DNA of 64,000 nt from Hymenobacter lucidus (lineage in GTDB: Bacteria; Bacteroidota; Bacteroidia; Cytophagales; Hymenobacteraceae): assembly GCF_020447265.1 (NCBI RefSeq), contig NZ_JAJADR010000001.1:496001-560000 (forward strand). The letters are read 5' to 3'. The translations under genes were made by a program, and so were the position numbers. The notes under the pieces are model-generated. The model made no database searches and was not told the DNA's origin. It was given only the letters and a program-made list of their open reading frames with translations. Shown here piece after piece: positions 45,722 through 48,984 of this stretch (position 1 is the first letter of the stretch; each line of letters opens with the position of its first letter).

Positions 45722-47104
45722 ATGATTCTGATAATTGACGATGATCTGGCCGTCCGGGCTTCCCTGGGGCTGCTGCTGAAGCAGGCGGGCTACCCCACCA
45801 AGGGCGTGGCTACCCCGGAAGATGCTCTGCAGGTGGTGCGTGCCACGCCGCCGGCCCTCATTCTCATGGACATGAACTACTCGCTGGATACCTCCGGCAA
45901 TGATGGTTTGCAGCTGCTGGGCCAGGTAAAAGCAGTAGCGCCCCAGGTTCCCGTCATCCTGATAACCGGTTGGGGCTCTATCACGCTGGCCGTGGAAGGT
46001 ATCAAGGCCGGGGCCGCCGAGTTCGTGACCAAGCCCTGGAACAACGACTCCCTGCTCCAGACTATCCGCACCATTTTGAGCCTGCAGGAGCGCCCTGCTG
46101 CGGCCGGCGCAGTGCTGAGTCGCCGCGACCTGGACCGGCAGTTCAATTTTCGCAACATCATCGGGGCCGACGCCCAGCTGTTGCACGTATTGCGCAACGT
46201 AGGGCAGGTGGCCGCCACCGATGCCTCCGTACTAATAGAAGGGGAGAGCGGTACGGGCAAGGAACTCATTGCCGAGGCCATTCACCACAACAGTCACCGC
46301 CGCGACAAGCCCTTCGTGAAGGTAAATCTGGGCGGTATTTCGGCCTCCTTGTTCGAAAGTGAGATGTTTGGGCACCGCCGCGGGGCCTTTACCGACGCCA
46401 AGACCGACCGGGTGGGCCGCTTTGAGTTGGCCAATAAGGGCACCATCTTTCTCGACGAAATCGGGGAGCTGGATATGGGCAGCCAAGTGAAGCTGCTGCG
46501 CGTACTGCAGGACCGCACCTACGAAGTACTCGGCGACAGCCGGGCCCGCAGCCTCGATATCCGGGTAATTTGTGCCACCAACCGCAACCTGGCCGAGATG
46601 GTGCGCGAGGGACGCTTCCGGGAAGACCTTTACTACCGCATCAACCTGATAACCGTGCGCCTGCCCGCTCTGCGCGAGCGGCCCGACGACATTCCGCTGC
46701 TGGTAAACCACTTCGTGAACAACCTGCGTACCACCTACAACCGCCCTTCCCTGAAAGTAGGTACCAAGGCTCTACACTGGCTCCACGAGCTGCCGCTGGC
46801 GGGCAACATCCGGGAGCTAAAAAACCTGGTGGAGCGCGCCGTGCTCGTCTCGGGCAAGGATGAACTGGGCCCCGAGGATTTTCAGGCCCAGTTTACTAAG
46901 GCCCCTGTAAAAGCTGCCGCCCCCGGCGAGCTGCCGCCCGTGGGCTCGATGACGCTGGAAGAAGTAGAGGTGCAGATGATCCGCAAGTCGATGGAGTTTT
47001 ATGCCGGTAACGTAAGCCGCGTGGCCAAAGCCCTGGGCCTGAGCCGCGGTGCACTCTACCGCCGCCTGGAGAAGTACGACATTCCCTTCGACGCGGAGAA
47101 GTAG
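45722..47104 (+). CDS. NtrC-family response regulator with GAFTDA loop
   Basis: 460 residues. The receiver has Asp50 (LILMDMNYSLDTSGNDG, with a 4-residue insertion after the Asp). The AAA+ domain has Walker A GESGTGKE (174-181), GAFTDA (221-226) in place of GAFTGA, and Walker B TIFLDE (241-246). A Fis-type HTH closes the protein (RVAKALGLSRGALYRRLEK). It is the likely activator of the two -24/-12-like efflux promoters. The kinase that should phosphorylate it lies 560 nt downstream, beyond the DUF559 element. Confidence 0.93.
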   Translation: MILIIDDDLAVRASLGLLLKQAGYPTKGVATPEDALQVVRATPPALILMDMNYSLDTSGNDGLQLLGQVKAVAPQVPVILITGWGSITLAVEGIKAGAAEFVTKPWNNDSLLQTIRTILSLQERPAAAGAVLSRRDLDRQFNFRNIIGADAQLLHVLRNVGQVAATDASVLIEGESGTGKELIAEAIHHNSHRRDKPFVKVNLGGISASLFESEMFGHRRGAFTDAKTDRVGRFELANKGTIFLDEIGELDMGSQVKLLRVLQDRTYEVLGDSRARSLDIRVICATNRNLAEMVREGRFREDLYYRINLITVRLPALRERPDDIPLLVNHFVNNLRTTYNRPSLKVGTKALHWLHELPLAGNIRELKNLVERAVLVSGKDELGPEDFQAQFTKAPVKAAAPGELPPVGSMTLEEVEVQMIRKSMEFYAGNVSRVAKALGLSRGALYRRLEKYDIPFDAEK

Positions 47105-47121
47105 GATTAGTGCTAAGAAGC

Positions 47122-47169
47122 TACAAAGCTAGTTCCCCTCCTTTTTTCAAGGAGGGGCTAGGGGTGGTT
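47122..47169. repeat. Left inverted repeat of the DUF559 element
   Basis: Contains the hairpin CCCCTCC...GGAGGGG followed by CTAGGGGTGGTT. Begins 18 nt after the regulator stop codon. Confidence 0.9.
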
Positions 47170-47212
47170 CAATCGTTGAACGACTATCTTGAACCGAATA
47201 CACCTATCCGCT

Positions 47213-47608
47213 ATGTCCGACTCCATCTACAACCACCCGCACCAGAAAGCCAGTCGCCAGGAACTCCGCAACCACCTTACCGAAGCGGAAGCAACCCTCT
47301 GGCGGGCCTTGCAGCGCAGTCAATTGGCCGGGCGCAAGTTCCGCCGCCAGCACGGCATTGGGGCGTACATCGTTGACTTCTACTGCCCGGCCGAGAAGCT
47401 GGTGGTAGAGCTGGATGGCGCGGGACATTTCACGGTGAGCGGCGAGGCCAACGATGTGGAGCGCACGGCTTACCTGAATGGGGTAGGGTTGCGGGTGTTG
47501 CGGTTCGAGAATAAGCTGGTGTTGGAACAGTTGGATGGGGTTGTGGCCGGTATTGAAGCGGCATTTAAATCGAGGTCGGATGCTGTAGCTCTAGCCAACC
47601 ACCCCTAG
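47213..47608 (+). CDS. DUF559 (Vsr-like) endonuclease-domain protein
   Basis: 131 residues from the ATG at 47213; a TTG at 47189 would add eight residues. TEAEATLWRALQRSQLAGRK, FRRQHGIGAYIVDFYCPAEK, LVVELDGAGH and LRVLRFENKLVLEQL match DUF559, a compact PD-(D/E)xK-like nuclease domain related to Vsr. The Asp of VDFYCP and Glu of VELDG are the expected metal ligands. Its last 12 nt lie inside the right inverted repeat, so the repeat encodes the C-terminus. It may act as a selfish homing-type nuclease or be merely carried. Confidence 0.88.
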   Translation: MSDSIYNHPHQKASRQELRNHLTEAEATLWRALQRSQLAGRKFRRQHGIGAYIVDFYCPAEKLVVELDGAGHFTVSGEANDVERTAYLNGVGLRVLRFENKLVLEQLDGVVAGIEAAFKSRSDAVALANHP

Positions 47609-47644
47609 CCCCTCCTTGAAAAAAGGAGGGGAACTAGTTTTGTA
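47597..47644. repeat. Right inverted repeat of the DUF559 element
   Basis: Mirror image of the left arm with one mismatch. It ends 20 nt before the kinase start codon. Confidence 0.9.
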
Positions 47645-47664
47645 TCTCTCGTTTCTTCCCATCC

Positions 47665-48984
47665 ATGACCTTACGCGTCAAGTTTCTGCTCTTCGTTGTC
47701 ATCATTCACGGCGTGCTCATTGCCCTGGCCGCGCAGGTCATGCGCTCCAACGCCGTGCTGTTCGTGGCTACGGAAGTGGTGCTGGTCATTTCCATTGTGC
47801 TCACCGTGCAGCTCTACCGGGGCTTCGTGCGGCCGTTTCAACTGATTGCGGCGGGCACGGAGGCCATTCGGGCCAAGGATTTCTCCATGAAGTTTGTGCC
47901 CGTGGGCCAGCGCGAAATGGACCAGCTCATCGACGTCTACAACCACATGATTGACGAGCTGCGGCAGGAACGTGTGACCCAGCACGAGAAAAGCTACCTG
48001 CTGGAGCGCCTCATTCAGGCCTCGCCGGCCGGTATCCTGCTCCTCGATTTCGACGGCCGCATCGAGGCCGCCAACCCCGCCGCCGAGCGGTGCCTGCACC
48101 TGCCCCAGGCCCAGCTGCTGCGGCAACTGCCCGCCGAACTGCCCGGCGAGTGGGGCCTGACCCTGAGCAGCCTGCAGGCCGGCCAGCCCCAGGTGGTACA
48201 GCTCTCGGGCATTCAGACGTACCGGGCCCATTGCTCCCACTTCCTCGACCGGGGCTTCACCCGCAACTTCATCATGCTCGAAGAGCTGACCCAGGACCTG
48301 ATCCGGCAGGAAAAGCAGGCCTACGAGAAGTTGATCCGGATGATGTCGCACGAAATCAACAACTCCATCGGAGCCATCAACTCCATCCTGCAGAGCTTCA
48401 GCTACTACACCGAGCAGCTGCGCCCCGACGACCGGACCGACTTCTCGGAGGCGCTAGAGGTGTCTATCAACCGCAATACGCACCTGGCCAACTTCATTGC
48501 CAACTTCGCCAACCTAGTGCGGCTGCCGGCCCCCACGCGCCGCCCCTGCGACGTGCACGATTTGGTGCGCTCCATTCACCGCCTCATGCTGGTGCAGAGC
48601 GAAAAGCGCCGCATTGCCTGGCATTGGCACTTAGCCCCCGAGCCGCTGTGGGTGGAGCTGGATTGCCAGCAGATCGAGCAAGCCGTACTCAACATCGTGA
48701 AAAACGCCCTGGAATCCATCGGCGAAGATGGCAACCTGACCATCAGCACCAGCCTTGATCCGCCCATGCTGCGCATCGAAGACGACGGGGTGGGCATCGC
48801 GCCCGAGGTGCAGCGCCGGCTGTTTACACCCTTCTTTAGCACCAAGCGCGACGGGCAGGGCATCGGCCTCACCATGATTCGCGACATCCTGCTCCAGCAC
48901 GATTTCACCTTCAGCCTCGAAACCACGCCGGCTAGCACCACGGCCTTCACCATCTGGCTGGGGAGGAATGCAGTAAAAGTGTGA
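47665..48984 (+). CDS. NtrY-like sensor histidine kinase
   Basis: 439 residues. Two membrane helices (about 6-24 and 31-52) with only a few residues between leave no periplasmic sensor; HAMP (about 53-105) and one PAS domain (about 108-200) follow. The H box has His229 (MMSHEINNSIGAI). Then come the N region (AVLNIVKNALES), DDGVGIAPE, FFSTKRDGQGIGLT. The SHEINN and FxTKxxGxGIGL wording is typical of kinases paired with NtrC-type regulators. Partner: the regulator at 45722. It probably senses a membrane or cytoplasmic cue. Confidence 0.92.
   Translation: MTLRVKFLLFVVIIHGVLIALAAQVMRSNAVLFVATEVVLVISIVLTVQLYRGFVRPFQLIAAGTEAIRAKDFSMKFVPVGQREMDQLIDVYNHMIDELRQERVTQHEKSYLLERLIQASPAGILLLDFDGRIEAANPAAERCLHLPQAQLLRQLPAELPGEWGLTLSSLQAGQPQVVQLSGIQTYRAHCSHFLDRGFTRNFIMLEELTQDLIRQEKQAYEKLIRMMSHEINNSIGAINSILQSFSYYTEQLRPDDRTDFSEALEVSINRNTHLANFIANFANLVRLPAPTRRPCDVHDLVRSIHRLMLVQSEKRRIAWHWHLAPEPLWVELDCQQIEQAVLNIVKNALESIGEDGNLTISTSLDPPMLRIEDDGVGIAPEVQRRLFTPFFSTKRDGQGIGLTMIRDILLQHDFTFSLETTPASTTAFTIWLGRNAVKV

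Follow-up and report, generated by a model that had tools for sequence, protein, structure and literature searches.

Our analysis of a 64,000-nt stretch of the Hymenobacter lucidus genome (the window) and of related genomes reveals a DUF559 nuclease gene that is enclosed by its own inverted hairpin repeats, that co-segregates with its repeat type and matches the subtype of repeats genome-wide, and whose sites turn over by gain, loss, shrinkage and, in one case, a flip. The element probably belongs to a REP-like selfish-repeat system in which a dedicated DUF559 nuclease (PD-(D/E)XK, Vsr-like) stands in place of the RAYT.

The window element comprises a left arm (47119..47169, forward strand), a nuclease gene of 131 aa with an ATG start (47213..47608, forward strand), and a right arm (47597..47647, reverse strand) that is an inverted copy of the left arm. 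The arms are 51 nt each, are 96% complementary, and have 427 nt between them; there is a single difference across their inner 48 nt, in agreement with the sequence-only reading, which had reported 48-nt inverted repeats with one mismatch. An equally high inverted-repeat score is reached in only ~0.1% of control segments, and the repeats are therefore far above chance. Each arm is a type A REP-like repeat, consisting of AGCTAGTT, a hairpin, and a tail, CTAGGGGTGGTT, directed towards the gene. Specifically, the left-arm hairpin (47135..47157, forward strand; CCCCTCCTT-TTTTC-AAGGAGGGG) and the right-arm hairpin (47609..47631, reverse strand) each have a 9-bp stem, and both are stable as single-stranded DNA (fold of -11.8 kcal/mol and z -3.3 for the left; z -3.5 for the right). 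The arms gave no match in Rfam. The stop codon (47606-47608) and last residues of the nuclease fall within the right arm, no transposase gene is present between the arms, and profile matches identify the flanking genes as a sigma-54-dependent response regulator (45722..47104, forward strand) and a sensor histidine kinase (47665..48984, forward strand). The sequence-only reading had described a self-contained element with a hairpin in each repeat, a right repeat that codes for the protein end, a split regulator-kinase pair, and no transposase, and as to anatomy, a gene plus its own inverted arms, this description is correct.

The window protein matches PF04480 (DUF559) over the curated Pfam cut-off, with an E-value of 2.5e-33, and gave no Y1 match. 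Among solved structures, 3hrl is closest in sequence (E 6e-21). The predicted structure (pLDDT 76.5) also matches that entry, together with the catalytic domain of homing endonuclease I-Bth0305I and, weakly, Vsr, as the earlier suggestion of a Vsr-like fold would have it; I-Bth0305I is the closest non-DUF559 structure (Foldseek E 2.3e-4, TM 0.78 by target length). At the sequence level, residues E26, D55, E66, and H72 are invariant across 10 diverse rows. A reading as a PADLOC defence system was rejected, the only match being a weak one to DpdF. Two loci in other Bacteroidota (L246 and L265) encode DUF559 fusions, in which the partner is a CcrM-like or HsdM-like DNA methylase.

DUF559 is present in 103 of 120 genomes of the genus. 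A search for ungapped inverted repeats in the surroundings of the domain, with controls taken elsewhere in the same loci, finds flanking inverted repeats with a score of at least 16 at 92%, and at least 20 at 85%, of 113 Hymenobacter DUF559 loci, versus a score of at least 16 in 0.1% of 913 control segments, a contrast that is somewhat generous because the controls are random segments rather than size-matched genes, yet arm pairs are genomically rare. Once the 11 top Hymenobacter-type records are set aside, a score of at least 16 is reached at 20 of 69 loci versus 3 of 271 controls; the loci that do so include Pontibacter, Raineya, and two Acidobacteriota, and Longimonas reaches 15. A phylum sample yields repeats at 9 of 29 loci versus 2 of 160 controls (one listed place lies within the genus). 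DUF559 loci of Flavobacteria mostly have no flanking repeats, indicating that the association is wide but not universal. The tie between DUF559 and the repeat that had been proposed from the window thus extends beyond it: the repeat is found genus-wide, and DUF559 genes elsewhere are linked to such repeats.

Two main repeat types, A and B, flank DUF559 genes in Hymenobacter. Type A has the hairpin CCCCTCC..GGAGGGG, and its tail, CTAGGGGTGGTT, points inwards; type B has the hairpin CCCCCTCTCC..GGAGAGGGGG, and its tail (GCCTCACCCCCCGG) points mostly outwards. A search of the window genome with the window arm gave 39 matches with an E-value of 10 or less, of which ~20 are strong (2.5e-4 or less), and these are mostly gene-free close inverted pairs of ~145-220 bp. 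Gene-free pairs outnumber gene-bearing pairs and are sited at unrelated places, so that a count of non-autonomous arm copies, as the sequence-only reading had called for, shows most repeats to be short pairs without the gene. Among the listed matches of the A pattern in the genus genomes, eight inverted A pairs spaced ~400-560 nt apart each enclose a DUF559 gene. One solo hairpin of the window genome (L025:1470-1540 on G000:C16, near 220887) consists of two outer A-arm halves with nothing in between. Further paired repeat families (GTCATTCCGAGC.., GTCATCCTGAGC.., and GTAGAGACGC..) are present at L181, L208, L228, L231, L236, L238, and other loci, and take the same intergenic sites in sister species.

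With the flanking histidine kinase gene as the anchor for locating orthologous sites, the window's site was read in 30 genomes, and the comparison of filled and empty alleles reveals full, inverted, gene-deleted, short-pair, and empty states between the regulator and kinase genes. In particular, the nuclease is present in the forward orientation in three genomes (the window genome, G046, and G023, with the match in G046 and G023 reading through an in-frame stop), is reversed between the same genes in G005 and G016 (both flanks 88-89% identical), and is deleted in G015, where both ends are retained; a short pair is present in G112 and, in altered form, in G049, and several other genomes are empty or have a local hairpin only. 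A flip is the expected product of recombination between inverted arms; the reversed gene may alternatively reflect an independent insertion in the opposite orientation. Comparison of 14 other pair sites of the window genome with six sister genomes yielded usable matches for most, and the orthologous sites variously contain a pair, a solo hairpin, or a different repeat family, or are empty. Orthologous pairs with different arm subtypes suggest arm conversion between repeat copies, and a solo hairpin is expected from deletion between palindromes, since the palindromes are also mutual direct repeats. Alignment of three sites with their empty alleles revealed no target-site duplication, and the junctions are not clean.

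The 111 nuclease copies occupy only 27 sites, indicating that most copies are inherited in place. Shared sites include purQ, with 22 copies, and a flotillin-like gene (identity read from the ORF), with 23 copies beside it; at the latter site, some genomes have an A nuclease and others a B nuclease. Horizontal transfer was considered for near-identical nucleases in distant species and rejected, since their shared flanks are explained by inheritance in place. Likewise, we do not claim repeated independent insertion at purQ, for which the tree needs four changes and the starred branches force only one. At L086, an A element with its own arms lies between two B arms, indicating a nested insertion.

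Several DUF559 elements are in frame with neighbouring genes. At up to 22 loci of the genus (L034, L037, L038, L041, L053, L135, and others), B-type DUF559 is in frame with the 3′ end of purQ, and the repeat arm of these purQ-fused elements is translated as PHPPAPSPxERG. A DUF559 element is in frame in or beside a RecB/AddA-like helicase gene at L123, L124, L125, L127, L133, and L080, and at the start of recQ at L128-L132, adding a nuclease domain to the RecB-like helicase and RecQ; L126 has a weak match to a DNA-repair protein. Across the purQ, RecB/AddA-like, and recQ sites, the arms of these B elements are translated as HPPAPSPxERG.

Nuclease clade and repeat type co-segregate. A tree built from 111 nucleases groups all 26 A-flanked rows in a single clade with support of 100/100, as calculated from 105 columns only, and the A-flank label requires 1-2 changes versus ~24 when shuffled. 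Such agreement is expected from linkage alone, and we therefore examined unlinked repeat copies. The A clade divides into two sister subclades, A1 and A2. The A1 subclade comprises nucleases with ~60% or more identity to the window protein; the border between A1 and A2 was set by identity and, at 60-64%, where the two overlap, also by the tree and the repeats. By this assignment, 29 genomes have an A1 nuclease and 24 an A2 nuclease. The A1 repeat pattern is found in 29 of 29 A1-nuclease genomes and 0 of 24 A2-nuclease genomes, a comparison in which the few genomes at 60-64% identity are not independent, since they were assigned with sight of the tree and the repeats. The A2 repeat pattern is found in 23 of 24 A2 genomes, with a median of 6.5 copies versus 1 in A1 genomes and 0 elsewhere, the low-number matches outside A2 genomes being due to the looser A2 pattern, which was built from A2 loci. 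Counts for both patterns include the nuclease's own arms. The A2 arm has a second hairpin between stem and tail, which forms 6.85 of 7 pairs across 46 distinct inserts versus 4.1 with shuffled partners; the sequence varies between copies yet pairing is kept, indicating that the arms are maintained as hairpins.

These results bear on a reading that we consider unlikely, in which DUF559 is a Vsr-like protein that serves the host in repair or restriction, each arm is an ordinary terminator or mRNA-stabilising hairpin that became linked to the gene, and the co-segregation is linkage at the locus. The Caulobacter DUF559 protein VsrA (CCNA_02930), for which a Vsr-like action has been proposed, is required for the SOS response in a methylase mutant (PMC12907096), a requirement that fits DNA cutting by a DUF559 protein in vivo; a host role would also suit the methylase fusions of other Bacteroidota and the inheritance of most nuclease copies in place. 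However, locus linkage does not account for unlinked repeats that match the nuclease subtype throughout the genome, and the gene-free pairs, the gene-deleted remnant, and the nested insertion require a mobile or convertible unit.

Of the 67 genomes that lack an A-clade nuclease, 25 keep A1 repeats, in up to 35 copies. Mapped onto a tree built from the kinase genes of 70 genomes, the distribution of the A1 nuclease requires a minimum of 11 gains or losses, and many nuclease-less genomes with A1 repeats are sisters of A1-nuclease genomes; it is therefore likely that the gene was lost from these genomes and the repeats lingered. A comparison of 15 phylogenetically independent pairs drawn from the kinase-gene tree, which discounted the arms of the nuclease itself, found a higher copy number in the carrier in 9 pairs, a lower one in 3, and 3 ties (sign p 0.15, Wilcoxon 0.05). 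The closest pair is the clearest: G075, with the nuclease, has 36 other arms, versus 7 in G076, without it. The presence/absence version of the test is not significant, having too few informative pairs. The paired counts are suggestive, but not proof, that the nuclease raises repeat copy number.

The nuclease-less genomes could also be accommodated if another enzyme, whether a RAYT, a different HUH transposase, or an unknown one, spread the repeats and the DUF559 gene were a passenger. A Y1 transposase of some kind is indeed present in 83 of 120 genomes. The window genome has one Y1 match, a RAYT-like gene (L354:525-1291 on G000:C16), but this gene is flanked by its own, different, GTAG-type repeats, TAGTAGCGCGAACTTTGTAGTTCGCG, and we rejected it as the mover of the A and B repeats. 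Further, no A or B arms lie within ~1 kb on either side of the Y1 genes at 19 loci, and A1 repeats are present in 22 of 37 genomes without any Y1 match, in up to 51 copies, A repeats being as numerous or more numerous in such genomes. The enclosure of a DUF559 gene by each of the eight listed A pairs of the longer spacing likewise argues against a passenger, and we regard this reading as rather improbable.

A free-standing homing endonuclease that cuts a target in the empty site and is then inserted by copying during repair, with the arms as by-products of a hairpin-rich target, would be consistent with I-Bth0305I as the closest non-DUF559 structure and with the use of the same sites, purQ and the flotillin-like gene, in many species. 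We judge it very unlikely, because inheritance largely accounts for the shared sites, gene-free pairs at unrelated sites outnumber gene-bearing ones, and arm type tracks nuclease type, not target. Chance or an assembly artefact, for which we found nothing in favour, is refuted to the point of being negligible by the reversed-pattern controls, in which patterns A and B had zero matches and A2 had isolated matches only, and by the many independent assemblies.

The preferred reading, a REP-like system with a dedicated nuclease, could operate as follows. The nuclease would recognise the hairpin-plus-tail arm, as an extruded cruciform or as a single strand on the lagging-strand template, and would cut in or beside it. 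Repair that uses a second copy of the arm as template would then move or convert repeat pairs and keep the arms alike, and recombination between arms could give an inversion (between inverted arms) or a solo hairpin (between palindromes acting as direct repeats). The nuclease gene itself would mostly be inherited in place, like single-copy RAYTs, and would act in trans on the scattered pairs. The sequence-only reading had proposed that the nuclease may promote spread of the repeat; the link between DUF559 and the repeat stood, and we infer a role in dispersal, against which must be set the copies inherited in place, the 25 nuclease-less genomes with repeats, and a paired test that is only suggestive.

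We lean towards the view that this is a second, independently evolved REP-type class that is spread or kept by a PD-(D/E)XK nuclease (Vsr-like) able to recognise its own hairpins, and that is present in Bacteroidota and at a few loci of Acidobacteriota and Rhodothermota. Our search, which covered only a minority of subscription-journal papers, found no literature tying DUF559 to REP or inverted repeats, so the novelty is provisional. Many genomes have palindromic repeats that no RAYT accounts for, and a DUF559 nuclease would supply an enzyme. If this view is correct, a family annotated as of "unknown function" or as Vsr-like gains a testable function, that of a hairpin-specific nuclease, and the REP life-style arose more than once, from unrelated enzymes. 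The split between A1 and A2 offers paired specificities for direct swap tests.

Among known systems, MITEs with their autonomous elements share with the DUF559 system gene-free derivatives that have the ends of a gene-bearing element, as in the G015 remnant; unlike MITEs and insertion sequences, the system here has no DDE or other transposase between the arms and shows no target duplication at the three sites aligned, and each arm is a hairpin. The repair endonucleases Vsr and VsrA share the family or the fold, but the literature searched contains no tie of Vsr genes to dispersed palindromic repeats. The Vsr-like homing endonuclease I-Bth0305I shares the catalytic fold and a small nuclease domain, and filled and empty sites are both observed here, but with junctions that are not clean; in contrast to I-Bth0305I, the DUF559 gene lies outside any intron or intein, is bounded by terminal inverted repeats of its own, and has gene-free relatives. 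With REP/RAYT systems and REPINs (the "REPtron"; features from PMC8266576), the DUF559 system shares a single enzyme gene between inverted palindromic repeats and scattered non-autonomous repeats that are often in inverted pairs, the two features on which the sequence-only analogy to REP/RAYT had been drawn and which bear it out. The two also share the co-inheritance of enzyme and repeat types, with a mostly vertical enzyme, and no target duplication is seen here. The differences are that the enzyme here is a PD-(D/E)XK DUF559 protein, not an HUH Y1 transposase (PF01797), that the arms (AGCTAGTT-hairpin-CTAGGGGTGGTT) are without the GTAG (or CGTC) stem-loop tag, and that the window genome also has a RAYT-like gene with repeats of the GTAG type. 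The DUF559 system works like REP/RAYT, but without its defining enzyme family and tag.
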